Below are positions 7,981 through 56,473 of a stretch of 64,000 nt of DNA, one piece after another. Numbering within the stretch: the stretch's first letter is position 1; every line of letters starts with the position of its first letter. The DNA is taken from assembly GCF_900188455.1 (NCBI RefSeq), contig NZ_FZOL01000006.1, positions 62,001-126,000 on the forward strand, written 5' to 3'. The notes below the pieces were generated by a model that worked only from the letters and a program-made list of their open reading frames with translations, was not told the origin of the DNA and searched no databases. Origin of the DNA: Pseudomonas japonica (lineage in GTDB: Bacteria > Pseudomonadota > Gammaproteobacteria > Pseudomonadales > Pseudomonadaceae). A program made the translations under genes and the position numbers.

Positions 7981-8598
7981 TCAGACGTTCAGCGGATCTT
8001 CCTGATTTTCCCTGTCCTTGCGCAGCTGCGCCGGGTCCGTCGCCTCCACCTCGCTGATTGGCTTGATCAGCGTCTGCGCCGCCACCGCCGCCTGCATCTG
8101 CGGTTCCACGGCGGCCATCGACTTCATCTCGCTTTCTTCCTTCATGCGCTGGGCAATCTGCTTGTCGATCGCGTCCTTCTTCTCCGGCGGCAGCGCTTCG
8201 TAGTCTTCCTCGGTCAACCCCAGCTCGTTGAGCATCTTCAGGCGAATCTTCTCTTCGGGGGAGAGCGCCATGTAGTCGCGGAACTCCTGCGCCGCGCTGG
8301 TGGTTTTCACCGTACTGTCGGACTCGCTCAGGCTGCTGGTGTCGCTGGACTCCGTGGAGCCGGAGTTCTGCAGAACCACCTTGAGCTTGGCGAACGCCTC
8401 GTCCTGGGCGTCCTTGGCATCCTGGTAGGTCGAGTTCGAGGCACCGCCCGTCGCGCTGGCGCTGGCCACGGTGGATACCGCCGAGGCCGTCGCGGTCTCG
8501 GACTGGTAGGCTTGCGCGTCGGCACCGGGGACGGCCGCCAGCGTGCGATGTTGACTGACCGCAATGTTTTGCCAGCCATGGCCATTGATGATGCTCAC
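7981..8598 (-). CDS. hypothetical protein, 205 aa, low-complexity N-terminus
   Basis: The gene starts with GTG behind AAGGAG. The first 75 residues are rich in Ala, Ser and Thr. The C-terminal half carries the stretch DYMALSPEEKIRLKMLNELG followed by acidic and basic helices (EEDYEALPPEKKDAIDKQIAQRMKEE), which looks helical and soluble. I see no signal peptide, membrane segment or catalytic motif. Similar proteins ending in a SPEEKIR...LPPEKKxxI pattern are common in Pseudomonas but have no assigned function as far as I recall. It is monocistronic, with the REP cluster after it. Divergent from it is the sigma-28-driven oxygenase operon. Confidence 0.75.
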   Translation of the reverse strand: MSIINGHGWQNIAVSQHRTLAAVPGADAQAYQSETATASAVSTVASASATGGASNSTYQDAKDAQDEAFAKLKVVLQNSGSTESSDTSSLSESDSTVKTTSAAQEFRDYMALSPEEKIRLKMLNELGLTEEDYEALPPEKKDAIDKQIAQRMKEESEMKSMAAVEPQMQAAVAAQTLIKPISEVEATDPAQLRKDRENQEDPLNV

Positions 8599-8759: not shown

Positions 8760-8786
8760 TAAAGTTTGCGCACGCGGTGCCGATCA
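8760..8786 (+). promoter_or_regulatory. sigma-28 (FliA) promoter for the oxygenase-methyltransferase operon
   Basis: The sequence reads TAAAGTTT, then 11 bases, then GCCGATCA. The family consensus is TAAAGTTT-N11-GCCGATAA, so 15 of 16 positions match with exact spacing. The same architecture precedes flgM, fliC and fliS in this window. The start codon at 8931 is about 145 bp downstream, giving a leader of roughly 135 bases. The 332-bp gap 8599-8930 otherwise holds only the divergent GTG-start gene's upstream region. Confidence 0.75.
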
Positions 8787-8930
8787 CCCGAACACGAGAG
8801 CCGGGCCATGACCCGGTGTCCCATGCGGTTGGAGTTCCCTGCCGGACGGGCAGGGTGGCGTCGCCTTGCGTCCACTTCAATTCATGGCCCGCGCAGGTCG
8901 CGGGCACCGGTCTTTATGAGGAAGAGGCGT

Positions 8931-9797
8931 ATGAATCTTTACATCAACCAGTTGCAGAAGAAGCCGGCGTTCCGCGAGCGCGTCTACGCGGGCGATATCT
9001 TCCTCGATACCAACCTGCGCAGCGCCCACGAGCTGTGCGCGCTGGCCCGGCACAGCATCACCGAGGCCTTCGACGGCGAAACCGACCATGTTTCGCTGCA
9101 CAAGAAGATGCCGGTGGAGACCTTCGTCGAGCACGTCACCCGGCTCAAGCGCAAGTTCACCAACGGCCCGCAGGCCAAGGCCCTGATCCGCGACTTCATC
9201 CTCGAAGTGGGCGCCGACCCCGACGACTACATCTTCGACGTGCCGCGGGTGCGCGTGGTGCCGAACTACGACTACCTGCACGCCGGTGTCAGCTATGCCT
9301 ACAAGCCGCACCGCGACACCTGGTACGGCAGCGTCGATTGCCAGCTCAACACCTGGATGCCGATCTACAGCATCGAGCCCGAGCAGACCATGATGATCAA
9401 CCCGGCCTATTTCGATCGGCCGGTACAGAACTCGTCCCACAGCTGGAGCCTGACCGACTGGATCAACAACCAGCGGCTCAAGGCCAAGGACAACATCACC
9501 CAGGAAAGCCGCGTGCATCCGGTGCCTCTGGAAGAGATCGACACCTCCTCGGAGATCCGCATCGCCGGCAACAGCGGCGAGATCATCACCTTTTCCGGCG
9601 CGCACCTGCACGGTACCGTGGCCAACCATACCGACAGGATCCGTTTCAGCGTGGACTTCCGTCTGATCCACCTGCAGGACCTGATCCAGAAGCGCGGCGC
9701 GCGCAACGTCGACAACGGCTGTTTCGACGTCGAAGCCGGCTTCAAAGACCTTTTCCATGCCAGCGACTTTTCGCAATTCCAGGGAGTTAATCCATGA
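8931..9797 (+). CDS. putative 2-oxoglutarate/Fe(II)-dependent oxygenase (PhyH-like)
   Basis: The 288-residue protein carries the facial-triad pattern of the cupin-like oxygenases. His127 and Asp129 are in KPHRDTWYG, a distal His227 is in GAHLHGT, and Arg236/Arg238 are placed to bind 2-oxoglutarate. The enzyme class hydroxylates small molecules or sugars using oxygen and 2-oxoglutarate. A strong AGGAAGAGG ribosome site fixes the ATG at 8931. The gene is the first of a two-gene unit, overlapping the methyltransferase by ATGA, and has a near-consensus sigma-28 promoter. A substrate on the flagellin glycan is therefore the most economical guess. No homologue with known substrate is recognised. 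Confidence 0.7.
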   Translation: MNLYINQLQKKPAFRERVYAGDIFLDTNLRSAHELCALARHSITEAFDGETDHVSLHKKMPVETFVEHVTRLKRKFTNGPQAKALIRDFILEVGADPDDYIFDVPRVRVVPNYDYLHAGVSYAYKPHRDTWYGSVDCQLNTWMPIYSIEPEQTMMINPAYFDRPVQNSSHSWSLTDWINNQRLKAKDNITQESRVHPVPLEEIDTSSEIRIAGNSGEIITFSGAHLHGTVANHTDRIRFSVDFRLIHLQDLIQKRGARNVDNGCFDVEAGFKDLFHASDFSQFQGVNP

Positions 9798-10516
9798 CCA
9801 AGCGTCGTCTGACTGCTGCCGAGGTCGAGTACAACGAAAAGCGTGCCAGCGTGCTGAGCCGCGTCGATGCCCAGTACGTGGCTGACGCCCCCTTCGTCTT
9901 CGCCAACCGCATCGCCGTGACCGCGGCGCTGTCGCGCATCGAGCTGTTCAAGATGGTCCAGGACATTCCGGGCGCCATCGTCGAATGCGGCGTGTACAAG
10001 GGCAATTCGTTGATGCTGTACATGCAGCTGTCGATGATTCTCGAGCCGTACGCGATCAACCGGTCGATCATCGGCTTCGACACCTTCCAGGGCTTCGCCA
10101 GCATCGATGAGAAGGAAGACCCGAGCGACATCAACGAGAGCATGTTCTCCGACACCGACGAGACCCTGATCCAGGACATGATCGAGGCCAACGACCTGAT
10201 CCGTCCGGTCAACCGCATTCCGCGCTGCGAGATCGTCAAGGGCGACATCCTCGAAACCGTGCCGGCCTTCGTCAAGACCCGTCCGGACCTGGTGGTGGCG
10301 ATGCTGATCCTCGACACCGACCTGTACTCCTCGACCAAGGTCGCCCTGGAAACCTTCCTGCCGTACATGCCGAAAGGCGCCATCGTGGTCCTGGACGAAG
10401 TCGCCTACCGCAACTTCCCCGGCGAAACCGCCGCCCTGCGCGATGTACTGGACCTGAACAAGGTCGAGCTGAAGCGCCTGCCGTTCGATTCGTCGGTGGG
10501 TTACTTCCGCGTCTGA
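9794..10516 (+). CDS. TylF/MycF-like SAM-dependent methyltransferase
   Basis: The 240-residue protein has a Rossmann SAM motif, IVECGVYKGNSLM (near residue 58), then FDTFQGF (about 95). The acidic metal-site segment LILDTDLYSSTKVALE (about 173) and the VVLDEVAYRNFPGE segment (about 200) are family hallmarks. Macrocin-type members use a divalent metal to O-methylate sugar hydroxyls. The ATG overlaps the stop of the oxygenase gene, so the two enzymes are probably made together. With the upstream sigma-28 promoter this suggests O-methylation of a flagellar sugar. A strong terminator follows directly. Confidence 0.82.
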   Translation: MTKRRLTAAEVEYNEKRASVLSRVDAQYVADAPFVFANRIAVTAALSRIELFKMVQDIPGAIVECGVYKGNSLMLYMQLSMILEPYAINRSIIGFDTFQGFASIDEKEDPSDINESMFSDTDETLIQDMIEANDLIRPVNRIPRCEIVKGDILETVPAFVKTRPDLVVAMLILDTDLYSSTKVALETFLPYMPKGAIVVLDEVAYRNFPGETAALRDVLDLNKVELKRLPFDSSVGYFRV

Positions 10517-10533: not shown

Positions 10534-10564
10534 AAAGAAGGCCGCTCAATGAGCGGCCTTCTTT
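10534..10564. terminator. bidirectional intrinsic terminator
   Basis: The stem AAAGAAGGCCGCTC with GAGCGGCCTTCTTT closes a tiny AAT loop. It has an A-run on the left and T-run on the right, so it can end both the methyltransferase operon and the convergent lpdV transcript. Confidence 0.93.
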
Positions 10565-21053: not shown

Positions 21054-21080
21054 TTCTCGGCCAACCCGAAGAAAACTTTA
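21054..21080 (-). promoter_or_regulatory. sigma-28 promoter of flgM-flgN(-flgZ)
   Basis: On the minus strand the site reads TAAAGTTT, 11 bases, GCCGAGAA. This is a perfect -35 and seven of eight -10 positions with exact spacing. The flgM start is about 39 bp downstream. Confidence 0.85.
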
Positions 21081-38764: not shown

Positions 38765-41700
38765 GTGAATCCAGCGCCTCTTGTCAGTCTCGTCATTCCC
38801 GCCAACAGTGCGCGTTTCTTCCGTGCGACGCTGGTCAGTGCCTTGGCCCAGAACTACGAAAACCTCGAAGTCATCGTCTGCGACGAAGGTCGCGACGACG
38901 AGATCAAGGCGATCGTCGACGAACTCGAACCGCTGTCCCGTTGCCCCTTGTACTACCAGCGCAATGCGCAGCCGCTGGGCCTGCCGCGCAACCTGCTGGC
39001 CGGGCTGGAACTGGCCCGGGGCGACTACGTGCGCTTTCTCTGCGATGACGACCGTCTGCTGGCGGGCTGCATCGACAGCGAGATGCAATTGTTCCTCGCC
39101 AACGAGGACGTCAGCCTGGTCGTCACCCGCCGCAACCTGGTCGACGGCGATGATTTCGCCCTGTCCCAGCGTCTGGAGAACAGCTGGTTCACCTGGGGCG
39201 ACACGGTCTATCACGGCAACGACCTGCTGGATTTCTTCGAGAGCAACCCGCTCAACTTCATCGGCGGTTTCAGCAACACATTGATGCGTGCCAGGGACCT
39301 CGGCGAGTTGTTGCCGGCGCTGGTCGAGGCGGGCTTCCACGCCCATATCGATTTCGCCCTGTTCGTCTGTCTGCTGCGTCGCGGCAACCTGGCGGTCACC
39401 GCCCAGGTGCACTGCATCGAGCGCGTCCATCCGCAGCAGCTGCGCCGTCAGGCCGACCTGCAGAGCGCCCGCGCCACCGAGCTGCAGTGGCTGCGCAACA
39501 TGTTCGCCGCGCGCCCGCCGGCCACCGAGACCTTCTCCGGCTGGGTGCGCATCCATGTGCTGCCGGTGGATGGCAGCCGCGCTGCGCGGGTCTGGGAAAA
39601 CCTGTTCCTGGTCCACGTCCTGCGGAGCCTGCAGGCGATCCAGGAATCCCAGGTGGGCGATGACAGCGACACCTTCGCCGACCTCTACGGCAAGTGGCTC
39701 GGCTGCCGCCAGGACCCGCTGGTCCTGCGCCGCCTGATGCGCCTGAGCGAGCACTGGGACTGGCAACCGCGGATCGCCGTGGTGGTGATCGACGAGGAGG
39801 GCGACAGCCAGGCGCGCCAGCGCACCCTGGAGAGCATCGGTCGTCAATGCTATGGCGCCGCGACGACCCTGCTGCTGGCGGCGGGCAAGCTGCCGGGCAG
39901 TCTCGACGAAGGCCTGATCAGCCGGGCGCTGCAAGGCGACTGGGCGCGGCAGCTCAACGAACTGCTGCCCGAGCTGGAAGGCATCGACTGGTTCTGGCTG
40001 GTGCGTGCCGGCGACCGCCTCAGCGAGTTCAGCCTGATGCTGCTGGCCGAACGCGCCGTGCGCCTGGCGGAGATCGCCTGCGTCTACGGTGACGAAGGCG
40101 GCCTGAGCGACGAGGCGTCGAGCGAGCCGGTATTCAAGCCGGACTTCAACCTCGACCTGCAGCGTGCCTACCCCTTCACCGGGCGGGTACTGGCCTTCTC
40201 CCGCACGGCTTGCCTGGCGGCGGGTGGTTTCGCCAGCGGTTACCAGGAACTGGCGCCCCATGACCTGCTCTGGCGCCTGCTGGAAAGCCATGGCCCGCAG
40301 GCCATCGAGCATATCCCCGAGGTGCTGGTGGAGTGCGCGCCCGGCTTTGCCGCCTGGGTTTCCTCGGCCAGGGTGATCGCGGAAAACCCGCGGGTGCTGG
40401 ACGCGCACCTGCGCCGCCTGGGCGTGGACTACCACCTGCGCAACGAGGCGGGCGCGGCGATCAACCAGATCCGCTACCTGCATGCGACGCAGCCGCTGGT
40501 GACCCTGGTGGTCAGCTTCCGTGATCAGGTGGCGGCGCTGGAGCGTTGCCTGGAAAGTGTGCTGGGTCGCACCGCGTATCCCCATTACGAAATCCTGGTG
40601 ATCGACAACGCCAGCGAGGGCGAGGCGTCCCGGGCCTGGCTGGCGGCCATGGCGCAGATGGGCGATCGCTTGCGCGTGCTGTCGCTGGAGGAACAAACCT
40701 CGTTCCCGCGGCAGATCAACCTGGCGGCGCAACACGCTCGAGGCGACTACCTGCTGCTGCTCGATCCCTGCACGGTGGTCACCGAGGCCGACTGGCTGGA
40801 CGAACTGGTCGCCCATGGTCAACGCGCGGAAGTCGGCATGGTCGGCGCCGAGCTGTGCAATGCCCACGGGCTGGTGGTCAACGCGGGCGGCATTCTTGGT
40901 CTGCGCGGCGCGGTGTATTCGCCGTTCGTCGGCGAGATGACCGAGACCGGCGGTTACATGCAGCGTTTGCAGGTGGCGCAGAACTATTCCGCCCTCGGCG
41001 CCGACTGCCTGCTGGTGCGCAAGCAGCTGTTCCTCGAACTGGGCGGGTTGAACGAGGAAGACTTCAGCGCCGCGTTCAGCGACGTCGACCTGGGGCTGCG
41101 CATGCGTCAGGCCGGTTACCTCTGCGTGTGGACGCCACGGGCGCGCCTGGTCCTGGATCGTCCGCCCGGTCCGGCACTGGATGCGGAGCAGGAAGCACAG
41201 CGGCAGACAGTCCTGGTGCGGCAGCACGAAAACTTCCAGCAGGCCTGGATGCCGGTGATCGCCCGCGATCCGGCCTACAACGTCAACCTGGCCCTCAAGG
41301 AGTCGGCATTCCGCCTGGAGCCTGGGCTCAAGGACGGCTGGCTGCCCTTCGTCGGGCGTTCGCTGCCGCACATCCTGGCCTTGCCGATGAACAAGAGTGC
41401 GGTGGGGCATTACCGGGTGATCAAGCCGCTGACCGAGCTGGAAGCGGCGGGCTGGGTTACCCAGCAGCAGTATTTCGAGATCCCCAGCAACGTCGAGCTG
41501 GCGCGTTCCGCGCCGGACGTAGCGATCCTCCAGGGCCGCTACACCGAGGGCTTCATCAAGGAAATCGAACGCCTGAAGACCTACTCCAAGGGCTTCGTCA
41601 TCTACGAGCTGGACGACTACGTGATCAAGGTGCCGAAGAAGAACGGCCACCTCAAGCACACCCCGCGCGACCTCGAGGGCTCGCTGCGCCGTGGCATTGC

Positions 41701-42349
41701 CCGCTGTGATCGCCTGGTGGTGTCCACCGAGCCGCTGGCCGATGCCCTGAGCGATACCCACCACGACATCCGCGTGCTGCCCAACATGCTCGCCGAGGAA
41801 CTGTGGGTCGGGCGTCGGGCCCAGCGCCGCACATCGAGCAAGCCACGGGTAGGGTGGGGCGGTGGCACCAGCCATACCGGCGACCTGGAAGTGATCGCCG
41901 ACGTGATCAAGACCCTGGCCAACGACGTCGAGTGGGTCTTCTTCGGCATGTGCCCGCCGGCGCTGCGCCCTTACATCCACGAGTTCCATCCGCCGGTGGG
42001 TCTTGGCGCCTATCCGGCCAAGCTGTCCAGCCTCAACCTGGACCTGGCCCTGGCGCCGCTGGAGTTCCACATCTTCAACGACTGCAAGAGCAACCTGCGT
42101 CTGCTGGAGTACGGGGCCTGCGGCTATCCGGTGATCGTCACCGACACCGCGGCCTACCGCGGCTACCTGCCCTGCACCCGGGTCAAGAGCAACTCCACCG
42201 AGGAATGGCTGGAAGCGATCCGCATGCACCTGGCCGACCCCGAGGCCAGCTACCGCATGGGTGACCAGTTGCATGACGAGGTGATGCGCAACTATGTGCT
42301 GCGGCCGGAGCATGTGCAGGTCTGGTATGACGGCTGGATGCCGAGCTGA
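38765..42349 (+). CDS. multi-domain flagellar glycosyltransferase, 1194 aa (Fgt1-like)
   Basis: This giant cytoplasmic protein contains several transferase modules. An N-terminal GT-A (GT2) domain (1-260) has VSLVIPANSARFFRATLVSAL and the DDD metal motif in FLCDDDRLL. A divergent domain covers about 320-560. A second GT2 domain (about 574-830) has LVTLVVSFRDQVAALERCLESVL, and a GT-B-like C-terminal domain (about 870-1190) has RVGWGGGTSHTGDLEVIADVI. The order and size resemble Fgt1 of P. syringae, which glycosylates flagellin; that comparison is from memory. The start is GTG without a strong ribosome site. It probably builds a multi-sugar chain on flagellin using the CDP sugar made downstream. 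Confidence 0.85.
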   Translation: MNPAPLVSLVIPANSARFFRATLVSALAQNYENLEVIVCDEGRDDEIKAIVDELEPLSRCPLYYQRNAQPLGLPRNLLAGLELARGDYVRFLCDDDRLLAGCIDSEMQLFLANEDVSLVVTRRNLVDGDDFALSQRLENSWFTWGDTVYHGNDLLDFFESNPLNFIGGFSNTLMRARDLGELLPALVEAGFHAHIDFALFVCLLRRGNLAVTAQVHCIERVHPQQLRRQADLQSARATELQWLRNMFAARPPATETFSGWVRIHVLPVDGSRAARVWENLFLVHVLRSLQAIQESQVGDDSDTFADLYGKWLGCRQDPLVLRRLMRLSEHWDWQPRIAVVVIDEEGDSQARQRTLESIGRQCYGAATTLLLAAGKLPGSLDEGLISRALQGDWARQLNELLPELEGIDWFWLVRAGDRLSEFSLMLLAERAVRLAEIACVYGDEGGLSDEASSEPVFKPDFNLDLQRAYPFTGRVLAFSRTACLAAGGFASGYQELAPHDLLWRLLESHGPQAIEHIPEVLVECAPGFAAWVSSARVIAENPRVLDAHLRRLGVDYHLRNEAGAAINQIRYLHATQPLVTLVVSFRDQVAALERCLESVLGRTAYPHYEILVIDNASEGEASRAWLAAMAQMGDRLRVLSLEEQTSFPRQINLAAQHARGDYLLLLDPCTVVTEADWLDELVAHGQRAEVGMVGAELCNAHGLVVNAGGILGLRGAVYSPFVGEMTETGGYMQRLQVAQNYSALGADCLLVRKQLFLELGGLNEEDFSAAFSDVDLGLRMRQAGYLCVWTPRARLVLDRPPGPALDAEQEAQRQTVLVRQHENFQQAWMPVIARDPAYNVNLALKESAFRLEPGLKDGWLPFVGRSLPHILALPMNKSAVGHYRVIKPLTELEAAGWVTQQQYFEIPSNVELARSAPDVAILQGRYTEGFIKEIERLKTYSKGFVIYELDDYVIKVPKKNGHLKHTPRDLEGSLRRGIARCDRLVVSTEPLADALSDTHHDIRVLPNMLAEELWVGRRAQRRTSSKPRVGWGGGTSHTGDLEVIADVIKTLANDVEWVFFGMCPPALRPYIHEFHPPVGLGAYPAKLSSLNLDLALAPLEFHIFNDCKSNLRLLEYGACGYPVIVTDTAAYRGYLPCTRVKSNSTEEWLEAIRMHLADPEASYRMGDQLHDEVMRNYVLRPEHVQVWYDGWMPS

Positions 42350-42371
42350 ATTTCTCGAAGCTGCCCACGAT

Positions 42372-42528
42372 CCTGTAGGAGCTGGCTTGCCTGCGATGGA
42401 CCGCGTAGCGGTCCCGGTTCCTGATCTACATTCAGGCCAACGATCTCTATGCGACTTCGGATCGGGAACCGGGACCGCTGCGCGGTCCATCGCAGTGGTT
42501 CGTCACACGACAAGCCAGCTCCTACAGG
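42372..42528. repeat. REP doublet with a 15-bp insertion in one arm
   Basis: The left arm (42372-42421) and right arm (42465-42528) are inverted copies. They share the CCTGTAGGAGCTGGCTTG head, a CTGCGATGGACCGCG core and a GGTCCCGGTTCC end. The right arm carries an extra 15 bases, TGGTTCGTCACACGA, absent from the left arm. With its flank this reads GGTTCGTCACACGACAAGCC, which is the inverse of the loop element at 7926-7946. The rest of the 306-bp gap 42350-42655 holds only the leader of the rfbF operon. Confidence 0.88.
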
Positions 42529-42655
42529 CAAGCAACCTGAACAATCTGGCGCGTTTCCTGCAAGTCCCCCTCCCATCGCCATAAATCCCGCGCCTGCGCG
42601 ATTTATCCGGACGGCCCGCCGCGCGCGGGCCCTGTGACGTACGAGAGGGAAGGAC

Positions 42656-43429
42656 ATGAAGGCAGTAATACTGGCCGGTGGACTGGGCACTCGCATCAGC
42701 GAAGAGTCGCACCTCAAGCCGAAGCCGATGATCGAGATCGGCGGCAAGCCAATTCTCTGGCACATCATGAAGCAGTACTCGGCCCACGGTATCCACGACT
42801 TCGTGATCTGCCTCGGCTACAAGGGCTACGCGATCAAGGATTTCTTCGCCAACTACTTCCTGCACACCTCCGACGTCACCTTCGACATGCGCGCCAACCG
42901 CATGGACGTGCACCAGAACTACAGCGAGCCATGGCGCGTGACCCTGATCGACACCGGTGAGGAAACCATGACCGGTGGCCGCCTGCGCCGCGCCGCGCGC
43001 TACGTGGAAGACGAGAAGGCCTTCTGCTTCACCTACGGCGATGGCGTTTCCGACCTGAACATCGGTGCCCTGGTGGATTTCCACCTGAGCCACGGCAAGC
43101 TCGCCACCGTCACCGCGGTACAGCCGCCCGGACGCTACGGCGCGCTGCAGCGCGACGGCGACGCCGTGCGCGGCTTCATCGAGAAGCCACGCGGTGACGG
43201 CGGCTGGATCAACGGCGGCTTCTTCGTCCTTTCGCCAAAAGTGCTGCCCTACGTCAGCGACGACCACACCTCCTGGGAATCCGAACCCCTCGCGCAGCTG
43301 GCCGCCGAAGACCAGTTGCAGGCTTTCCAGCACGACGGCTTCTGGCATCCGATGGACACCCTGCGCGACAAGAACCATCTCGAACACCTCTGGCAGAGCG
43401 GGGAGGCCCCATGGAAACAGTGGGCTTGA
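42656..43429 (+). CDS. rfbF: glucose-1-phosphate cytidylyltransferase
   Basis: The 257-residue protein has the nucleotidyltransferase N-terminus MKAVILAGGLGTRISEESHLKPKPMIEIGGKPILWHIMKQY and the metal-binding GDGVSD motif. The MDTLRDKNHLEHLW C-terminus is characteristic of CDP-glucose pyrophosphorylases. It makes CDP-glucose from CTP and glucose 1-phosphate, the first step of CDP-6-deoxy sugars. It is the first gene of a seven-gene overlapping operon (42656-48942), overlapping rfbG by 19 bp. Confidence 0.94.
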   Translation: MKAVILAGGLGTRISEESHLKPKPMIEIGGKPILWHIMKQYSAHGIHDFVICLGYKGYAIKDFFANYFLHTSDVTFDMRANRMDVHQNYSEPWRVTLIDTGEETMTGGRLRRAARYVEDEKAFCFTYGDGVSDLNIGALVDFHLSHGKLATVTAVQPPGRYGALQRDGDAVRGFIEKPRGDGGWINGGFFVLSPKVLPYVSDDHTSWESEPLAQLAAEDQLQAFQHDGFWHPMDTLRDKNHLEHLWQSGEAPWKQWA

Positions 43430-44493
43430 ACAGCGATTTCTGGCAGGGCAAGCGCGTCCTGCTGACCGGCCACACCGGTTTCAAGGGCAGCTGGCTGGCA
43501 TTGTGGCTGCGTGAACTGGGCGCCGAAGTCACCGGCTTCGCCCTCGATCCTCTGCCGGGCCCCAACCTCTACGAACTGGCCGCGGTCGGGCGCGAGATCA
43601 AGGACGCCCGTGGCGACCTGCGTGACCTCGGCGCGCTGCTCGAAGTGGTGGCCGAGGCGCAGCCGGAGATCGTCCTGCACCTGGCCGCGCAACCGCTGGT
43701 GCGCGAGGCCTATCGCGATCCGCTGGGTACCTATTCCAGCAACGTCATGGGCACCCTCAACCTGCTCGAAGCGATCCGTCAGGTCGGCGGCGTGCGTTCG
43801 GTGGTGCTGGTCACCACCGACAAGGTCTACGCCAACCAGGAATGGCCATGGCCCTACCGCGAGAACGAGGCGCTGGGCGGGCACGATCCGTACAGCAGCA
43901 GCAAGGCCTGCTGCGAGCTGCTGGCGCAGTCCTACACGGCCTCCTTCTTCCCGCCGGACAAGCATGCCGAGCACGGCCTGGCCCTGGCCACCGCGCGCGC
44001 CGGCAACGTCCTCGGCGGTGGCGACTTCGCCGCCGAACGGCTGATTCCCGATGTGCTCAAGGCCTGGGATGCCGGGCACCCGGTGACCTTGCGTTATCCA
44101 CAGGCGGTACGCCCGTGGCAGCACGCCCTGGAGCCGCTGGCCGGCTACCTGCTGCTGGCCCATCGGCTGTACACCCAGGGTCCGGAATTCTCCGGGGCGT
44201 GGAACTTCGGCCCCAACGAAGGCGACATGTGCAGTGTCGGCGAAGTGGTCGCCCACCTGTCCCGGCAGTGGCCGGATTCGCCGGGGATCCGCGTCGAGCC
44301 GAGCGAGCTGCATGAGGCCGGCGTGCTGCGCCTGGACAGCGGCCGCGCGCGCCAGTTGCTCGGCTGGCGTACGCGCTGGTCGTTGCGCGAGTGCCTGGAG
44401 CACACCCTGCAATGGCACCTGGCCTGGAAGCGCGGCGGCGACCTGCGCGCGGTGACCCTCGACCAGCTCAACCTGTACGCGGAGCTGTCGTGA
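43411..44493 (+). CDS. rfbG: CDP-glucose 4,6-dehydratase
   Basis: The 360-residue short-chain dehydrogenase-type protein has the NAD motif LLTGHTGFKGSWLALWL. The TTDKVY segment and catalytic Tyr-Lys in DPYSSSKACCELL are present. The RPWQHALEPLAGYLLLA stretch is typical of RfbG. It converts CDP-glucose to CDP-4-keto-6-deoxyglucose. It overlaps both neighbours (19 bp with rfbF, 4 bp with the epimerase). Confidence 0.94.
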   Translation: METVGLNSDFWQGKRVLLTGHTGFKGSWLALWLRELGAEVTGFALDPLPGPNLYELAAVGREIKDARGDLRDLGALLEVVAEAQPEIVLHLAAQPLVREAYRDPLGTYSSNVMGTLNLLEAIRQVGGVRSVVLVTTDKVYANQEWPWPYRENEALGGHDPYSSSKACCELLAQSYTASFFPPDKHAEHGLALATARAGNVLGGGDFAAERLIPDVLKAWDAGHPVTLRYPQAVRPWQHALEPLAGYLLLAHRLYTQGPEFSGAWNFGPNEGDMCSVGEVVAHLSRQWPDSPGIRVEPSELHEAGVLRLDSGRARQLLGWRTRWSLRECLEHTLQWHLAWKRGGDLRAVTLDQLNLYAELS

Positions 44494-45050
44494 GCGACCT
44501 GCAACTGCAGGCGCTGCCGCTGGCAGGCCTGTTCAGCGTCCAGCACAAGCGCCACGGCGACGCCCGCGGGCAGTTCGCCCGGCTGTTCTGCGAAGGCAGC
44601 CTGACCGGGCTCGGCACGCCGTTCCATATCCGCCAGATCAACCATTCGCGCACCGTCGGCGAAGGCTCCGTGCGTGGCCTGCACTACCAGCAGGGCGACC
44701 AGCCGGAAGCCAAGCTGATCACCTGCCTGCGCGGCGCGGTGTGGGATGTGGCGGTGGACCTGCGCCAGGGCTCGCCGACCTTCCTGCGCTGGCACGCCGA
44801 ACGCCTCGAAGCCGGCGACGGCCGCAGCCTGCTGATCCCCGCCGGTTTCGCCCACGGCTTCCAGGTCCTGGGCGACGAAGCCGAACTGCTCTACCTGCAC
44901 AGCGCCGACTACGCGCCGGGCCGCGAGGGCGGGCTGTCGGTGCACGACCCGCGCCTGGCGATCGACTGGCCGCTGCCTGTCAAGAATCTGTCGGCCCGGG
45001 ATGAAGCCCATCCCTGGCTGGATCATCATTTCACCGGAGTGTCCGCATGA
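44490..45050 (+). CDS. RmlC-like NDP-4-keto-6-deoxyhexose epimerase
   Basis: The 186-residue cupin has the RmlC pattern: the substrate-binding and catalytic His in VRGLHYQQGDQ, AVWDVAVDLRQGSPTF, and the FAHGFQVLGDEAELLYLHSADYAP segment with the acid tyrosine. It would epimerise C3 and/or C5 of the CDP-4-keto-6-deoxyglucose made by RfbF/RfbG. The GTG start overlaps the rfbG stop (GTGA). Whether both positions are epimerised cannot be read. The presence of a C-methyltransferase directly downstream suggests a 3- or 5-epimerised, then branched sugar. Confidence 0.86.
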   Translation: MSDLQLQALPLAGLFSVQHKRHGDARGQFARLFCEGSLTGLGTPFHIRQINHSRTVGEGSVRGLHYQQGDQPEAKLITCLRGAVWDVAVDLRQGSPTFLRWHAERLEAGDGRSLLIPAGFAHGFQVLGDEAELLYLHSADYAPGREGGLSVHDPRLAIDWPLPVKNLSARDEAHPWLDHHFTGVSA

Positions 45051-46270
45051 ATTGCCGTGGCTGTGGCGCAGCGTTGAGCCTGCCGCTGATCGACCTGGGC
45101 ACCGCGCCGCCTTCCAACGCCTACCTGCGCGCCGAACAGCTGGCCCAGGCCGAGGCCTGGGTGCCGCTGAAAGTCGGCGTCTGCCAGCAGTGCTGGCTGG
45201 TGCAGACCGAGGACTACACCCGCGCCGACGCGCTGTTCGATGCCGACTACGCCTATTTCAGTTCCTACTCCACTTCCTGGCTGGCCCACGCCCGCCAGTA
45301 CGTCGAGGACATGAGCGCGCGTTTCGACCTCGCTGAACACAGTCGCGTGGTGGAGATCGCCGCCAACGACGGCTACCTGCTGCAATACGTCGCCGCCCGC
45401 GGCATTCCCTGCCTCGGTGTCGAACCGACCCGCAGCACGGCCCAGGCGGCGCGGGAAAAAGGTCTGGAGATCCGCGAGCTGTTCTTCGGCGAAGCGAGCG
45501 CGCGAGCGCTGGTGGAAGAGGGCTGGGCCGCCGACCTGATGGCGGCCAACAACGTGCTGGCGCATGTGCCGGACATCAACGATTTCCTTCGCGGTTTCGC
45601 CACCCTGCTCAAGCCGGCGGGCGTCGCCACCTTCGAGTTTCCGCACCTGCTCAGCCTGATGGCCGAGCACCAGTTCGACACCCTGTACCACGAGCACTAT
45701 TCCTACCTGTCGCTGACCGCCGTGCGCACCCTGTGCCAGCGCAATGGCCTGGAGATCTTCGACGTCGAGGAACTGCCGACCCATGGCGGTTCGCTGCGGG
45801 TCTTCGTGCAGCGCGCGGGCGGTCCGCAGGCCGTCTTGCCGGCGGTGCGGGCACTGCTGGAAACGGAAGACAAGGTCGGCGTGACCAGCGCGGACTTCTA
45901 CGCGACCCTGGCGCCCGCCGCCGAACGCATCAAGCACCAGCTGCTGCGCTTCCTGCTCCAGGCGAAGGCGGAGGGCAAGCGCGTGGTCGGCTACGGCGCC
46001 GCGGCCAAGGGCAACACCCTGCTCAACTACGCCGGGGTACGTGCCGACCTGCTGGCCTGGGTCGCCGACGCCAACCCGCACAAGCAGGGCAAGTTCCTTC
46101 CGGGCAGTCGCATTCCGGTGGTGGCACCGGAGCGCCTGGCCATCGAGCAGCCGGACTACGTGCTGGTGTTGCCGTGGAACCTGCTCAAGGAGGTCAGCGA
46201 ACAGCAGGCGCTGGTGCGTGAATGGGGCGGCCGCTTCGTCATCGCCGTGCCGGAGTTGACCGTCCTGTGA
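45047..46270 (+). CDS. sugar C-methyltransferase (TylCIII/NovU type)
   Basis: The 407-residue protein has three family parts. An N-terminal zinc-binding segment has four cysteines (MNCRGCGAALSLPLIDLG ... VCQQCWLVQ). A SAM domain (about 90-240) has VVEIAANDGYLLQYVAARGIPCLGVEP. A C-terminal Methyltransf_14-like domain has VVGYGAAAKGNTLLNYAGV. Known members add a methyl carbon to C3 of NDP-4-keto-6-deoxy sugars, giving branched sugars such as mycarose or noviose precursors. The conserved His in YHEHYSYLS is present. Start overlaps the previous stop by ATGA. The likely substrate is the CDP sugar of this operon. Confidence 0.88.
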   Translation: MNCRGCGAALSLPLIDLGTAPPSNAYLRAEQLAQAEAWVPLKVGVCQQCWLVQTEDYTRADALFDADYAYFSSYSTSWLAHARQYVEDMSARFDLAEHSRVVEIAANDGYLLQYVAARGIPCLGVEPTRSTAQAAREKGLEIRELFFGEASARALVEEGWAADLMAANNVLAHVPDINDFLRGFATLLKPAGVATFEFPHLLSLMAEHQFDTLYHEHYSYLSLTAVRTLCQRNGLEIFDVEELPTHGGSLRVFVQRAGGPQAVLPAVRALLETEDKVGVTSADFYATLAPAAERIKHQLLRFLLQAKAEGKRVVGYGAAAKGNTLLNYAGVRADLLAWVADANPHKQGKFLPGSRIPVVAPERLAIEQPDYVLVLPWNLLKEVSEQQALVREWGGRFVIAVPELTVL

Positions 46271-47127
46271 TGAAGGTATTGCTCACCGGTGCCAGCGGTT
46301 TCGTTGGCCAGCACCTTGTCGCCGCCTTGCTGGAGCGCGGCTGCCAGGTCCGCGCCGTGGCCCGGCGCGAAGAGCCGGCACGGGCGCAGCCCTGGTTCGA
46401 CCAGGTCGAGTTCGTCGGCGCCGATATCCACAGTGCGGACACCGACGTCGCCGCCCTGTGCGAGGGGGTCGATGCGCTGGTCCATCTGGCCTGGCCGGGG
46501 CTGCCGAATTACCAGGGCCTGTTTCACCTCGAACACAACCTGATGGCCGACTACGGCTTCATCAAGCGCGCGGTCGAGGCCGGGGTAGGGCAGGTGCAGG
46601 TCACCGGCACCTGCTTCGAATACGGCCTGCAGAGCGGCCCGCTGGCTGAAGAGCTGGAATGCCGTCCGGGCAATGCCTACGGCCTGGCCAAGCACAGCCT
46701 GCGCCTGTTCCTCGATACCCTGCGCCAGCAGCAGCCGTTCACCCTGCAATGGGCGCGACTGTTCTACCTGTACGGCCCGGGGCAGAACCCCAACAGCCTG
46801 CTGGCGGCACTGGACCGGGCGATCGATGCCGGGCAGGCGCGTTTCGACATGTCCGCGGGCGAGCAGCTGCGCGATTTCCTGCCGATCGAGACGGCCACCG
46901 CCCACCTCGCGGATCTGCTGCTGCGCCGCGATTTCAGTGGTGTGGTCAATGTCTGCAGTGGCCAGCCGGTGTCGGTCCGCGGCCTGGTGGAGCGCCACTG
47001 CGCCGCGCGCGACGCGCGCATTGCCTTGAACCTCGGTCACTACCCTTACCCGACGCACGAGCCCATGGCCTTCTGGGGCGATGCCCGGCGCCTGCGTGCC
47101 TTGCTGGGAGCACAACATGAAGCATGA
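46270..47127 (+). CDS. NAD(P)-dependent sugar epimerase/4-ketoreductase
   Basis: The 285-residue extended SDR has the N-terminal nucleotide motif KVLLTGASGFVGQHLVAALL and the Tyr-Lys pair in NAYGLAKHS. A C-terminal half for NDP-sugar binding follows. It probably reduces the 4-keto group of the branched CDP sugar, the usual last step of such pathways. Start and upstream stop share one base (TGATG). Which stereoisomer is produced cannot be deduced. Confidence 0.85.
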   Translation: MKVLLTGASGFVGQHLVAALLERGCQVRAVARREEPARAQPWFDQVEFVGADIHSADTDVAALCEGVDALVHLAWPGLPNYQGLFHLEHNLMADYGFIKRAVEAGVGQVQVTGTCFEYGLQSGPLAEELECRPGNAYGLAKHSLRLFLDTLRQQQPFTLQWARLFYLYGPGQNPNSLLAALDRAIDAGQARFDMSAGEQLRDFLPIETATAHLADLLLRRDFSGVVNVCSGQPVSVRGLVERHCAARDARIALNLGHYPYPTHEPMAFWGDARRLRALLGAQHEA

Positions 47128-48190
47128 GCTGTACCGCGCCAGCGCCCTGCCGGTGCTGCAGAACCGCACCTTCGCCGATGCCGCCAGCGCCCGCGCCAGT
47201 GCCAGCGCCGACATGCGTCTGGTGCAGGACAGCCGCACCGGCCTGGTCTTCAACGACGCCTTCGATGCCGACAAGCTCAACTACGACAGCGACTACCAGA
47301 ACGAGCAGGCCCATTCCGCGCAGTTCCAGCGCCACCTGAACGATGTCGAGGCCATCGTCGCCCGTCATTTCACGGGACGCAGCCTGATCGAAGTCGGGTG
47401 CGGCAAGGGGTACTTCCTTGAGCTGCTGCGCGAGCGCGGCTACGCCGTGACCGGTATCGACCCGGCCTACGAAGGCGACAACGCCGACGTGATCAAGGCG
47501 CCGTTCACCCCCGCGCTGGACCTGCGCGCCGAGGCCATCGTCCTGCGTCATGTGCTGGAGCACATCGCCGACCCGGTGAGCTTCCTCCACGAGATCGCCC
47601 GGGCCAATGGCGACAGCGGCCTGATCTACATCGAAGTGCCGTGCCTGGACTGGATCATCGAGCACAAGGCCTGGTTCGACCTGTTCTACGAGCACGTCAA
47701 CTACTTCCGCCTCGCCGACCTGCAGCGTCTGTTCGGTCGCGTGCTGGAAGGCGGCCGCCTGTTCGGCGGGCAGTACCTGTACGTGGTCGCCGACCTCGCC
47801 AGCCTCCGTCGTCCGGACGCTGGTGGAGGTGAACCGCTGCGCCTGCCCGACGACTTCAGTGCCAGCCTGGAGCGCGCGGTGGCCATCGTCCGCAGCGATG
47901 CCGACAAGGGCTCGGCGATCTGGGGCGCCTCGTCCAAGGGCGTGATCTATTCGCTGTTCCTGCAGCGCGCCGGGGTGGCGGTCGACCAGGTGGTCGACAT
48001 CAATCCGGCCAAACAGGGCCGCTACCTGCCGCTCAGCGGCGCGCGCGTATCGTCGCCGCAGGAGGCCATGGCCGCCTTGCCCGACGGCGCCAACCTGTTC
48101 GTGATGAATTCCAACTACCTCGAAGAAATCCGCCGCATGACCGCCGACCGCTTCGTCTACCACGCCGTCGACAGCGCCGCATTTCAATGA
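47117..48190 (+). CDS. second SAM methyltransferase with C-methyltransferase-type C-terminal domain
   Basis: The 357-residue protein has a SAM domain with LIEVGCGKGYFLELLRERGYAVTGIDP and the LRHVLEHIADPVSFL motif. Its C-terminal domain (about 250-357, IWGASSKGVIYSLFLQRAGVAVDQVVDINPAKQGRYLP) is of the Methyltransf_14 type also present at the end of the 45047 protein. It lacks the cysteine-rich zinc segment at the N-terminus. It may be a divergent C- or O-methyltransferase on the same sugar or on the next one. It overlaps both neighbours by 11 and 4 bp. Function beyond methyl transfer is unknown. Confidence 0.8.
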   Translation: MKHELYRASALPVLQNRTFADAASARASASADMRLVQDSRTGLVFNDAFDADKLNYDSDYQNEQAHSAQFQRHLNDVEAIVARHFTGRSLIEVGCGKGYFLELLRERGYAVTGIDPAYEGDNADVIKAPFTPALDLRAEAIVLRHVLEHIADPVSFLHEIARANGDSGLIYIEVPCLDWIIEHKAWFDLFYEHVNYFRLADLQRLFGRVLEGGRLFGGQYLYVVADLASLRRPDAGGGEPLRLPDDFSASLERAVAIVRSDADKGSAIWGASSKGVIYSLFLQRAGVAVDQVVDINPAKQGRYLPLSGARVSSPQEAMAALPDGANLFVMNSNYLEEIRRMTADRFVYHAVDSAAFQ

Positions 48191-48210
48191 CTTCCCAGAG
48201 AGACAGCACC

Positions 48211-48942
48211 ATGACCGACGTTATCAAAGCCTTCGAAGCCGAATGCGCAGCCGGCATCCACGCCCAGGGCCAGGACGAGCAGCTCAAGGGCCTGGCCCGG
48301 GACTTCTTCAACGAGTCGGCCAAGCACAAGTACAGCTACCACTTCTCCTGGATGGGCCGGCCGATCATCCAGCTGCCCCAGGACATGCTGGCGATGCAGG
48401 AGATCATCTGGCGGGTCAAGCCGGACCTGATCATCGAGTGCGGCATCGCCCACGGCGGTTCGATCATCTACTACGCCTCGCTGCTGGAGCTGCAGGGACA
48501 TGGCGAGGTGCTGGGCATCGATCTGGACATCCGTCCGCACAACCGCGACGCCATCGAAAGCCATCAGATGGCCAAGCGCATCTCGATGATCGAGGGTTCG
48601 AGCATCGATCCGGCCGTGGTCGAGCAGGTGCGCGCGATCGCCGAAGGCAAGAAGGTCATCCTCGTGCTGGACTCCAACCACACCCATGAGCACGTCCTCG
48701 AAGAGCTGCGCGCCTATGCGCCGCTGGTGGCGCTGGGCAGCTACTGCGTGGTGATGGACACCGTGGTCGAGGACATGCCGGCGGAGTTCTTCCCGGACCG
48801 TCCGTGGGGGCCGGGGGACAACCCGAAGACCGCGGTCTGGGCCTACCTGAAGGAAAACAGCGACTTCGAGATCGACCAGCAGATGCAGGACAAGCTGCTG
48901 ATCAGCGTCGCCCCGGATGGCTATCTGCGCCGGGTGCGCTGA
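48211..48942 (+). CDS. CmcI/cephalosporin hydroxylase-family methyltransferase
   Basis: The 243-residue protein (MTDVIKAFEAEC start) has the SAM-binding core IIECGIAHGGSIIYYASLLELQ and the metal-site segment VLDSNHTHEHVLEELRAYAPLV. Family members include rhamnosyl O-methyltransferases as well as CmcI; despite the family name, hydroxylation is not expected. An upstream in-frame ATG at 48187 overlaps the previous stop (ATGA) and would add eight residues, but AGAGAG lies before 48211. It closes the CDP-sugar operon, giving three methyltransferase-type genes there. Confidence 0.83.
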   Translation: MTDVIKAFEAECAAGIHAQGQDEQLKGLARDFFNESAKHKYSYHFSWMGRPIIQLPQDMLAMQEIIWRVKPDLIIECGIAHGGSIIYYASLLELQGHGEVLGIDLDIRPHNRDAIESHQMAKRISMIEGSSIDPAVVEQVRAIAEGKKVILVLDSNHTHEHVLEELRAYAPLVALGSYCVVMDTVVEDMPAEFFPDRPWGPGDNPKTAVWAYLKENSDFEIDQQMQDKLLISVAPDGYLRRVR

Positions 48943-48957
48943 AGCCGTTCATTTGAT

Positions 48958-49008
48958 GGCCTCATCGCCACCTGATCTGTAGGAGCGGGCGTTGCCCGCG
49001 ATGAGGCC
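48958..49008. repeat. REP palindrome between CmcI-like gene and second glycosyltransferase
   Basis: GGCCTCATCG (48958-48967) faces CGATGAGGCC (48999-49008), and the right half includes TGTAGGAGCGGGCGTTGCCC. The core is the same as in the element upstream of flgF. It ends 37 bp before the next start codon. Confidence 0.8.
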
Positions 49009-49044
49009 CTGAAGATCACCGCCGATTTCCCGTCAGGTACCGAC

Positions 49045-51924: not shown

Positions 51925-52078
51925 AACGGCGCGATGGCCAGGGAGTGGCCTGACTCTTGCTTCGCGCTTGGGTAAACAGGGCAGAGGTCAGAAAAACGTT
52001 GGTTTTCCGCCCTCCGCCCACTGCGAGTTCCGGTCGTCGCCCCATCCCCCGGGGCGGCGACCCTGCCAGGATTCAGGC

Positions 52079-53413
52079 ATGTTCGACGACAAGTCCCTCT
52101 TTACTTCCAGCGTCATCGGCGCGTTCGGCCGCACGCTGTCCGGCGCGTCGGTGGAACTGGCCGGCAGCCTGGCCGCGCCATTGCCGTCGGCGAGCGTCAG
52201 CCGGATGCCGCTGGCCGAGAGGTGCCTGCCGGTCGAACCGGCCACGAACATTCCCTATGGCCGGCAGAACGTCGATCAGGCCGATATCGATGCCGTGGTC
52301 GAGGTGCTGCGTTCCGACTGGCTGACCCAGGGTCCGACCCTGGAGCGTTTCGAGCTGGCGGTGGCCGAACGCTGCCGCGCCGCTCATGCGGTGGCGGTCA
52401 GCAATGCCACCGCCGGCCTGCACCTGGCCTGCCTGGCCGCCGGGCTCGGCGCCGGCGACTGGCTGTGGACCAGTCCCAACAGTTTCGTCGCCTCGGCCAA
52501 CTGCGCGCGCTACTGTGGCGCCGCGGTGGATTTCGTCGATATCGACCCGCTGACCTGGAACCTCGACGTCCGTGCCCTGGCGCGCAAGCTGGAGCTGGCC
52601 CGCGACGCGGGGCGTCTGCCCAGGGTGCTGGTTGCGGTGGCGTTCTCCGGACAGAGCTGCGACATGGCCGAGATCGCCCGCCTGGCCCGTGAATACGGGT
52701 TCCGCGTGATCGAGGATGCCGCCCATGCCTTTGGCGCCGACTATGCCGGCGAGCCGGTGGGCTGCGGTCGTCATGCCGACATGACGGTGTTCAGCTTCCA
52801 CCCGGTGAAGATCATCACCAGCGGCGAAGGCGGCATGGTCCTGTGCAACGATCCCGAACTGGCCCGGCACCTGCGCGGCCTGCGCAGCCACGGTATCACC
52901 CGCGATCCGGCGCGGATGAGCGAAGCCACCCATGGCGACTGGTACTACCAGCAGACCGAACTGGGCTTCAATTACCGCATGTGCGACATCCAGGCCGCCC
53001 TCGGCCTGTCGCAGTTGCGCCGGCTCGACGCCTTCCTCGAGCGCCGCCGCCAACTGGCGGCGCGCTACCAGCGCCTGTTGGCCGGCCTGCCGCTGCAGTT
53101 GCCGACGGCGCAGGCCGATGCGCATTCGGCCTGGCATCTCTACGTGGTGCGCCTGCATGAGCACCTCGAGGGCCATCATCGTGCGGTGTTCGACGGCCTG
53201 CGCGAGGCGGGCATCAACGTCAACCTGCACTACATCCCGATTCACCTGCAGCCGTACTACCGCGACCTCGGCTTCGCCCCCGGCGACTTCCCCGAGGCGG
53301 AGCGCTACTACCGCCAGGCCATCACCCTGCCGTTGTATCCGGACCTCAGCGAGGCCCAGCAGGATCGCGTGGTGGCGGTGCTCGCCGGGCTGTTGTCGGA
53401 GGTCCGGGCATGA
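52079..53413 (+). CDS. pseC: UDP-4-amino-4,6-dideoxy-N-acetyl-altrosamine transaminase with odd N-terminal extension
   Basis: The 444-residue protein contains the DegT/AHBA aminotransferase core from residue 58 (NIPYGRQNVDQADIDAVVEVL) to the end. The PLP lysine is Lys244 in FSFHPVKIITSGEGG. PseC adds the 4-amino group in pseudaminic acid synthesis. The first 57 residues are extra. They start MFDDKSLFTSSVIGAFGR, which resembles the first 18 residues of PseB (MFxDKSILITGGTGSFGR) but without the glycine-rich NAD motif. A CAGGA site supports the ATG at 52079; the ATG at 52207 (MPLAERC) is an alternative. The gene overlaps pseF by 4 bp. Confidence 0.88.
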   Translation: MFDDKSLFTSSVIGAFGRTLSGASVELAGSLAAPLPSASVSRMPLAERCLPVEPATNIPYGRQNVDQADIDAVVEVLRSDWLTQGPTLERFELAVAERCRAAHAVAVSNATAGLHLACLAAGLGAGDWLWTSPNSFVASANCARYCGAAVDFVDIDPLTWNLDVRALARKLELARDAGRLPRVLVAVAFSGQSCDMAEIARLAREYGFRVIEDAAHAFGADYAGEPVGCGRHADMTVFSFHPVKIITSGEGGMVLCNDPELARHLRGLRSHGITRDPARMSEATHGDWYYQQTELGFNYRMCDIQAALGLSQLRRLDAFLERRRQLAARYQRLLAGLPLQLPTAQADAHSAWHLYVVRLHEHLEGHHRAVFDGLREAGINVNLHYIPIHLQPYYRDLGFAPGDFPEAERYYRQAITLPLYPDLSEAQQDRVVAVLAGLLSEVRA

Positions 53414-54123
53414 GCGGCGCGGTGGCGATCATCCCGGCGCGCGGCGACAGCAAGCGGATCCCCGGCAAGAACCGCAAGCTGTTCCAGGGCGAGCCGATCA
53501 TGGCCTATTCGATCCGCGCCGCGCTGGGCAGCGGCCTGTTCGAGCGGGTGGTGGTCAGTACCGACGATCCGCTGATCGCCGACGTGGCCCGCGAGCTGGG
53601 TGCCGAGGTGCCGTTCATGCGCCCGGCGAACCTCGCCGACGACCATGCCAGTACCCTCGCGGTGATCCTGCACGCCTTGCGCGTCCTGGAAGAGCAGGGC
53701 TACTGGGCCGAACTGGCGTGCTGCGTGTATGCCACCGCGCCGCTGCTGCAGAAGCGCTACCTGCGCGCGGGCTACGAGACCCTGATGGCGCATCCGCGCA
53801 AGGACTACGCGTTTTCCGTCTGCAGCGTCGGCTTCCCGGTACAGCGGGCGCTGACCCTGACCGACGACGGCGCCCTGACGCCGCTGTATCCGCAGTACCG
53901 CGACACCCGCTCGCAGGACCTGCCCCATGCCTACCAGGATGCCGCCCAGTTCTACTGGGGACGCAGCGAGGCCTGGGTGCGTGGCGAGCCGCTGTTTTCC
54001 GAGCGCAGCCTGCCGGTGATGGTGCCGCGGCACCTGGTCCAGGACATCGACACCGAGGACGACTGGGTGCGCGCCGAATACCTGTACCGCGTGCTGCGCG
54101 ACGCCGGGGAACTGGACGATTGA
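53410..54123 (+). CDS. pseF: pseudaminic acid cytidylyltransferase
   Basis: The 237-residue protein has the CMP-sialic acid synthetase N-terminus (AIIPARGDSKRIPGKNRKLFQGEPIMAYSI) and DIDTEDDWVRAE at the C-terminus. It makes CMP-pseudaminic acid from CTP and the free sugar. Its ATG overlaps the pseC stop and its stop overlaps the pseG TTG. Confidence 0.93.
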   Translation: MSGAVAIIPARGDSKRIPGKNRKLFQGEPIMAYSIRAALGSGLFERVVVSTDDPLIADVARELGAEVPFMRPANLADDHASTLAVILHALRVLEEQGYWAELACCVYATAPLLQKRYLRAGYETLMAHPRKDYAFSVCSVGFPVQRALTLTDDGALTPLYPQYRDTRSQDLPHAYQDAAQFYWGRSEAWVRGEPLFSERSLPVMVPRHLVQDIDTEDDWVRAEYLYRVLRDAGELDD

Positions 54124-56229: not shown

Positions 56230-56473
56230 GGCTCGCGCCTCTCTGGCGCGCGCTCTGACTGGGCGCGCCCTAGGAAAATATGCCATTGTCTGGGAAAATC
56301 CGTGACCTATCGGTCAGAACGGACATCTGTGTCTCTATCGTTGATGGAAGTGGCGGGCCGTGTCACCGCCATTTCCACTGCCGCCCAGTTCAGCGGGCGG
56401 TGGGAATCCCTGTTTTCTGGCGCCTCTCGAATCATGCGAGCGGTGATCTTCAGCAGTTTTTCATTGGGAAGCC

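Follow-up and report, generated by a model that had tools for sequence, protein, structure and literature searches.

A candidate sigma-28-timed oxygenase and methyltransferase cassette for flagellin glycan tailoring in Pseudomonas japonica

A two-gene cassette in Pseudomonas japonica probably tailors the flagellin glycan at the stage when the filament is made. It lies in a 64,000-nucleotide stretch (the window: positions 62,001 to 126,000 of contig NZ_FZOL01000006.1, assembly GCF_900188455.1) and encodes a 2-oxoglutarate (2OG)/Fe(II) oxygenase and a sugar O-methyltransferase (MT) behind a promoter of the FliA (sigma-28) type. The pair appears to be accessory and timed by sigma-28; the two enzymes would hydroxylate and O-methylate a deoxysugar. 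Comparison across genomes supports this through the footprint of the promoter, the constant pairing of the two genes, their occurrence so far solely in genomes carrying a marker of the flagellin glycosylation island, and the fold and family of both enzymes. In window coordinates the cassette consists of:

8760-8786, + strand: FliA (sigma-28) type promoter, TAAAGTTT-GCGCACGCGGT-GCCGATCA, i.e. TAAAGTTT-N11-GCCGATCA; 15/16 match
8787-8930, + strand: leader from the promoter match to the start codon, 144 bases
8931-9797, + strand: 2-oxoglutarate/Fe(II) oxygenase, 288 amino acids (aa), triad His127/Asp129/His227 and Arg238
9794-10516, + strand: CalS11/TylF-type sugar O-methyltransferase, 240 aa, putative catalytic base Asp176

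FliA promoters follow the consensus TAAAGTTT-N11-GCCGATAA, in which 16 positions are scored. The site before the pair has a spacer of 11 bp, and 144 bp separate its end from the ATG of the oxygenase gene; in orthologues the leader measures 40-165 bases in the bkd context and 31-34 in the gingeri-, frederiksbergensis- and syringae-type contexts. A first-pass annotation of the window had reported a 15/16 match with exact 11-bp spacing, and this is upheld. It had also described an identical promoter layout before flgM, fliC and fliS, which is correct for flgM and fliS and too strong for fliC, where the site is weaker:

21054-21080, - strand: FliA site of flgM, 15/16
62072-62098, + strand: FliA site of fliS, 15/16
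59226-60080, + strand: fliC, flagellin, 284 aa; FliA-like site 12/16, 80 bp upstream

Close matches to the consensus are rare. Only three sites with at most one mismatch are found in the 6.7-Mb genome; all lie in the window, and they precede the pair, flgM and fliS. At up to three mismatches the window contains four FliA-like sites against 0.06 expected. The genome contains 24 such sites and 20 with the reversed pattern, which is near background; taken alone, this class is no evidence for a promoter. FliA is encoded in the genome (TIGR02479, 276 bits; cut-off 189.6). Because nine scanned genes of the glycosylation island have no FliA-like site above 10/16 in the 300 bp upstream of each, the pair is, in sequence terms, wired like the filament genes and unlike these island genes. 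A simple scan listed no sigma-70-type promoter near the pair.

The promoter is also conserved. A contig scan of genomes gave 31 named loci with orthologues 68-95% identical, and the best FliA-like site in 250 bp upstream of each was compared with 500 dinucleotide shuffles. The site was equalled by at most 4 of 500 shuffles in 26/31 loci and by none in 20/31. The footprint was measured on the window and 30 orthologous upstream regions, that of Silvimonas being left out. Averaged over all pairs of sequences, identity reaches 0.85 (-35 box) and 0.77 (-10 box), against 0.42 for the spacer and 0.31 and 0.38 for the 40-base flanks; for the 13 bkd-context sequences the values are 0.98 and 0.85 (boxes), 0.46 (spacer), and 0.33 and 0.53 (flanks). 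Choosing sites by consensus match raises box identity by itself, and the picking was therefore repeated on shuffled upstream regions. Over 50 rounds, this control gave box identities with means of 0.38 and 0.40 and maxima of 0.45 and 0.48, and the mean site score was 13.2/16 for the real regions versus 8.9/16 for the shuffled ones. By this comparison the promoter is a conserved footprint, the boxes being kept while the spacer and flanks drift, and regulation by FliA, as first proposed, is well supported. A chance match to the consensus was considered and is ruled out by the genome scan, the shuffles, and the footprint with its shuffled control.

More distant oxygenase relatives never have a FliA-like site above 10/16 (18/18 loci, 450 bp upstream). 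Fourteen other Pseudomonadaceae genomes contain such relatives (L034-L047; 26-31% identity), likewise with upstream sites of 10/16 or less, and no MT homologue was found within the stretches fetched around them.

The two genes behave as a unit. They overlap by ATGA in the window; MT follows the oxygenase in all 31 named loci, and its ATG stands at a constant offset in 30, with a 1-base shift in P. bharatica (L076). The oxygenase frame is broken in P. bharatica CSV86 (L076:10001-10867), through either a real change or a sequencing error. Among 298 Pseudomonadaceae genomes, that of the window included, an oxygenase orthologue (at least 68% identity) is present in nine and an MT orthologue (at least 83%) in the identical nine. 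The nearest named relatives of the pair are in Pseudomonas. Coordinates, alignment and Pfam all bear out the two-gene layout, the ATGA coupling, the triad and the TylF-like MT that had been claimed for this locus.

The flagellin glycosylation island to which the pair is linked occupies a separate part of the window:

38765-58750, + strand: flagellin glycosylation island, between flgL and fliC
42656-46270, + strand: core common to the examined pair-bearing islands; glucose-1-phosphate cytidylyltransferase, CDP-glucose 4,6-dehydratase, RmlC-like epimerase, C-methyltransferase

Besides these core genes, the island encodes two large GT2 proteins, an epimerase/reductase, further methyltransferases including one of the CmcI type (an O-methyltransferase), PseC/PseF/PseI, a KASIII-like protein and a Maf-like protein (MptE domain). 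Its C-methyltransferase was used as the island marker. At 1e-120 the marker is present in 44/298 family genomes; in 33 of these its identity is at least 77%, and the nine family genomes with the pair all fall among the 33. The marker was also sought in the genomes of 30 of the 31 named loci (L070, on a 4.7-kb contig, was left out; at least four of the 30 coincide with members of the nine, as identical coordinates show). It was found in 30/30, in 29 at 76% identity or more and in Silvimonas at 58%. This co-occurrence search had been suggested together with the original prediction, and its outcome supports the link to the flagellin glycan well, as far as a single island marker can be followed through sequences.

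The islands themselves are alike. A five-gene core, NTP-RmlB-RmlC-CMT-CmcI, is present in 14/14 pair-bearing islands examined, the one in the window included, and all 14 adjoin flgL and/or fliC; in Silvimonas the island with the core directly abuts fliC-flaG. Two island versions carry the pair, with either an epimerase/reductase and MT23 or a DegT aminotransferase after the C-methyltransferase. Because both versions carry it, the modified position of the sugar is probably not C4. In protein sizes and families, a cluster beside the pair in a locus of the syringae group (L068) is similar to the viosamine island, which is a likeness and not a test; a VioT-like glycosyltransferase of L068, searched among 76 relatives, gave 36-46% matches in 10 genomes.

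MT belongs to a well-defined family. It matches PF05711 (TylF) at 1.4e-13 (51.2 bits; cut-off 23), and its profile finds CalS11 as the best PDB match (1.1e-57 over ~211 residues), followed by MycF and NovP. Asp176 is invariant in 19 sequences and aligns with Asp191 of CalS11, as counted by eye in the alignment. In the available description, CalS11 is a TDP-rhamnose 3'-O-methyltransferase which works at the sugar-nucleotide stage, with Asp191 as putative base. The O-methylation step first proposed for MT is likely, with a deoxysugar as acceptor, given this CalS11-like sequence. One relative from another genus (G056; 37%) is placed between fliC and flaG, accompanied by the same CDP-sugar genes, and a 38% relative (G874) is in a sugar island ending at fliC. 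No MT relatives were found in viral contigs.

The oxygenase is more divergent from characterised proteins. His127, Asp129, His227 and Arg238 are invariant in 27 aligned sequences, and from its place Arg238 would be the 2OG-binding arginine. A structural model built from 22 close orthologues had a pLDDT of 44; when two viral relatives were added, the model reached pLDDT 75.9 and pTM 0.81. Its best fold matches are PtlH (Z 13.7-13.8; rmsd 3.7-3.9 over 224-231 residues), PHYHD1 (12.2) and KanJ (10.9). According to the model, the protein is an oxygenase with a double-stranded beta-helix of the PtlH/PhyH fold. The hydroxylation step of the earlier prediction is made plausible by this fold and the triad. 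The NCBIfam model TIGR04324 (SpoChoClust_2) weakly matches 25/27 of the aligned oxygenases (best 1.5e-8), and the window oxygenase scores 25.2 bits against its cut-off of 150.

A viral relative of the oxygenase (32%) lies between a DegT aminotransferase and an epimerase. Next after the epimerase is a protein whose C-terminal C-methyltransferase part matches that of the island at 4e-47. This viral sugar cluster (L192:1089-6555, IMGVR_UViG_3300021962_008382) also contains an FkbM methyltransferase.

FliA control offers a means of timing. In Pseudomonas, according to the portion of the source that is available, FliA is released when FlgM is exported after hook completion, and its targets are class IV genes, fliC and flgM among them; fliS and fliD are FliA-dependent in P. 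putida KT2440 (PMC8036289). In the proposed mechanism, export of FlgM upon hook completion would release FliA, which would transcribe the oxygenase and MT genes in a single coupled unit, alongside the filament genes. The PhyH-like oxygenase would use Fe(II) and 2-oxoglutarate to hydroxylate a deoxysugar, or a methyl or acyl substituent on it, the sugar coming from the CDP-glucose-derived, C-methylated sugar pathway of the island. The CalS11-like MT would next O-methylate the new hydroxyl or one adjacent to it. This would most likely happen on the nucleotide sugar, ahead of transfer of the sugar to flagellin by the island glycosyltransferases. From the comparisons above we infer actual FliA dependence, the order of the steps, the substrate, the modified position and the chemistry.

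Several observations weigh against this reading. Upstream sites are near chance in 5/31 loci (L059, L060, L070, L071 and L075; equalled by 14-44 of 500 shuffles); in L075, that of Silvimonas, the best site upstream of the pair reaches just 11/16 (17/500 shuffles), and the fliC of this genome has a 14/16 site. The hypergeometric probabilities for co-occurrence, 8.5e-10 with the 33 genomes and 1.6e-8 with the 44, are uncorrected for kinship. For the oxygenase, all Pfam matches are below cut-off, the PDB sequence match is weak (PtlH, 0.013), and the HxD loop is poorly modelled, with pLDDT below 50 at residues 125-135. Of two distant MT relatives, G275 has no window-like island or flagellar gene within 16 kb and G006 none within 3.6 kb. 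Finally, the pair is absent from 24 of the 33 family genomes in which the marker reaches at least 77% identity, and it is for this reason that the pair is considered an optional add-on to the island. In 20 of these 24 genomes, neither the oxygenase nor the MT gene was found in 19.9 kb around the marker. In six of the 20 (G095, G163, G194, G228, G212 and G288), the stretch contains nothing related to the two large glycosyltransferases; by gene content, these six hold a different version of the island.

It is possible, though rather unlikely, that FliA-controlled modification of the flagellin glycan takes place on a rhamnose or pseudaminic residue and not on the CDP-derived, C-methylated sugar. 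CalS11, the closest solved relative of MT, methylates TDP-rhamnose; the window island also has PseC/PseF/PseI; and the pair tolerates two island versions. Against this, the CDP-sugar core is present in 14/14 islands, the viral oxygenase relative neighbours a C-methyltransferase, and the island stretches of G290, G774 and G772 showed no NeuB (PseI) gene, the rest of these genomes being unsearched. G290 does hold a PseF relative, and the stretches of G766, G759 and G764 end near the NeuB position, which makes them uninformative on this point. Pseudaminic acid as the common substrate is less likely on account of the three stretches in which NeuB was not found. Since its genes are in every examined pair-bearing island and NeuB was not found in those three, the CDP-derived, C-methylated sugar is the better guess from gene content.

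A less probable alternative keeps control by FliA and has the pair make a small molecule, or modify another surface glycan or a protein (for example at flagellin lysines), in place of the flagellin glycan. FliA regulates further genes, such as biofilm ones, as stated in the available part of PMC8036289; most 2OG oxygenases and TylF-type methyltransferases of solved structure belong to secondary metabolism, and the pair of the window sits outside the island. However, no obvious biosynthetic neighbours are present in the lpdV/bkd and CorA/LysR contexts, among those looked at, and the pair tracks the island marker across four or five genomic sites and two classes. In addition, the nearest solved relative of MT acts on a sugar nucleotide, and the nearest NCBIfam model of the oxygenase is labelled as belonging to a carbohydrate cluster. 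It is very improbable that the FliA match is coincidental or vestigial, with the pair expressed otherwise and its island association due to descent: the near-chance sites in 5/31 loci, the near-background class of up to three mismatches and the disregard of kinship in the co-occurrence statistics speak for it, but in several contexts the boxes are maintained while the spacer and flanks vary, and the simple scan found no sigma-70-type promoter nearby.

The sigma-28-timed glycan-tailoring cassette, as we prefer to read the pair, is found at four or five genomic sites. Eleven named loci are at the bkd/lpdV site with lpdV present, and L051 joins them on a shorter contig stretch. Eight have flgL-flgK-flgI within 10 kb (gene names checked), with L066 added on a shorter stretch. 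A further site has a CorA gene (L059, L071-L074) and/or a LysR gene (L060, L071-L074), with L070 on a shorter stretch. In the syringae group, the pair of L077 is near ycgR-flgM and that of L068 is beside an island with glycosyltransferase, KASIII and short-chain-reductase genes. In the betaproteobacterium Silvimonas amylolytica (L075), the pair comes after tRNA-Met (L075:9579-9654). tRNA genes such as this are a common landing site of acquired DNA. The number of sites is given as four or five because the L077 and bkd contexts, which have a transporter and ycgR-flgM in common on the right side, may be one ancestral site. Altogether, the pair is near flg genes or beside a glycosyltransferase island in 10/31 loci. 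The description of the pair as outside the flagellar locus therefore holds in the window but not in every genome, as eight named loci are less than 10 kb from flgL-flgK-flgI and one is near ycgR-flgM.

In the protein tree, the flg-type rows group together, as do the CorA/LysR-type rows, and Silvimonas clusters with these two types; the two rows of the syringae group are surrounded by those of the bkd context. A search of 200 sampled genomes of the order of Silvimonas with MT at 1e-40 found, apart from Silvimonas itself, a single genome, whose relative is 39% identical, and this rarity suggests that the pair reached Silvimonas by transfer. L051, a contig of a metagenome-assembled genome titled Paucimonas, has a pair which groups tightly with that of P. 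putida GM4FR, and its label may be wrong. In its fullest form, for and against which the balance is about even, the reading is that of a self-contained, mobile two-enzyme cassette which has its own sigma-28 promoter and travels apart from its island. It would have entered at least four sites in two proteobacterial classes, being kept only where that CDP-deoxysugar island exists, and would add the first known 2-oxoglutarate-dependent hydroxylation on a flagellin glycan, followed by O-methylation. A strain could then change its flagellar surface chemistry by gain or loss of two genes which are switched on at the filament stage.

In the window the pair is isolated, with a divergent gene upstream and a convergent gene downstream. 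The latter encodes dihydrolipoyl dehydrogenase and adjoins the gene for the 2-oxoisovalerate dehydrogenase beta subunit (the set termed lpdV/bkd). The divergent gene (7981-8598, - strand) encodes an Ala/Ser-rich protein of 205 aa which has no family match above cut-off; relatives are present in 9/12 bkd-context loci. From the end of the MT gene it is ~8.9 kb to ycgR, which agrees with the distance of about 9 kb to the nearest flagellar gene originally given, and ~10.2 kb to flgM, as read from the coordinates. Between the convergent MT and lpdV genes there is one further feature:

10534-10564, no strand: palindrome with 15-bp arms (31 bases), found by eye

The palindrome is a possible two-way terminator; a terminator scan listed none, this palindrome included.

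FliA-like sites were also seen before other genes. A 14/16 site (L006:1501-2021; G000:C30:245340) precedes an uncharacterised 152-aa protein whose match to FlxA is weak and below cut-off, and a second site of 14/16 (L005) lies before a motor gene of the MotA type. Upstream of the pair in L068 (7607-9900) and L077 (7617-9906), a response-regulator/TPR gene and a histidine-kinase-type ATPase gene sit behind a 13/16 site; their families were tested in L068.

The usual explanation of flagellin glycans is an island of sugar genes, in many cases next to fliC. The pair suggests that decorating enzymes can be encoded away from the island, under the sigma factor of the filament, and can be gained or lost independently. 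Such unlinked tailoring could account for flagellin masses that differ by 14 or 16 Da between strains. The pair gives a defined genetic handle, and its case suggests that glycan-tailoring genes unlinked to an island can be found by combining scans for FliA promoters with co-occurrence. Should it be confirmed, the oxygenase would bring an activity new to flagellin modification. As far as the available texts go, flagellin glycans affect how Pseudomonas flagella meet surfaces (PMC8036289) and are required for virulence in P. syringae pv. tabaci (PMC3927599).

The first-pass annotation knew of no described system of this kind. For the oxygenase this stands: no 2OG oxygenase acting on a flagellin glycan, nor such a pair, was found among the matches listed from open-licence literature, and nothing there linked TylF with flagellin, or phytanoyl-CoA dioxygenase with flagella, glycosylation and Pseudomonas. 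It does not stand for FliA-driven flagellin modification, described in Shewanella, or for O-methylation of a flagellin glycan, described for VioM; since both are known, the novelty is narrowed. Among solved enzymes, CalS11 resembles MT in being its best PDB match with the putative catalytic Asp aligned; however, it serves antibiotic (calicheamicin) biosynthesis and has no flagellar link. PtlH and the PhyH-type 2OG oxygenases share the fold, the HxD...H motif and the arginine with the window oxygenase, but PtlH is only 11-12% identical and its substrates are unrelated, so that the match shows fold and not reaction. KanJ and EvdO1, both from antibiotic pathways, are also among the structural matches of the oxygenase. 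With respect to TIGR04324 (sporadic carbohydrate cluster 2OG-Fe(II) oxygenase), the window oxygenase is a relative and not a member. VioM of P. syringae pv. tabaci 6605, a methyltransferase of 241 aa, is close to MT (240 aa) in length; without VioM, the terminal sugar of each flagellin glycan has one methyl fewer. Unlike the pair, VioM is inside the viosamine island, and the gene table in the available text gives it no oxygenase partner (PMC3927599). The closest parallel in regulation is sfmABCDE (SO_3261-3265) of Shewanella oneidensis, an operon for flagellin modification that has a FliA consensus predicted 57 bp upstream of it, in an organism whose flagellin modification bears O-methyl groups. 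It has five genes including a NeuB-domain synthase, and the word 'oxygenase' is nowhere in the available text. The first four sfm genes are required for motility in soft agar, and whereas the pair would add to an existing modification, sfm builds the modification itself (PMC3765264).

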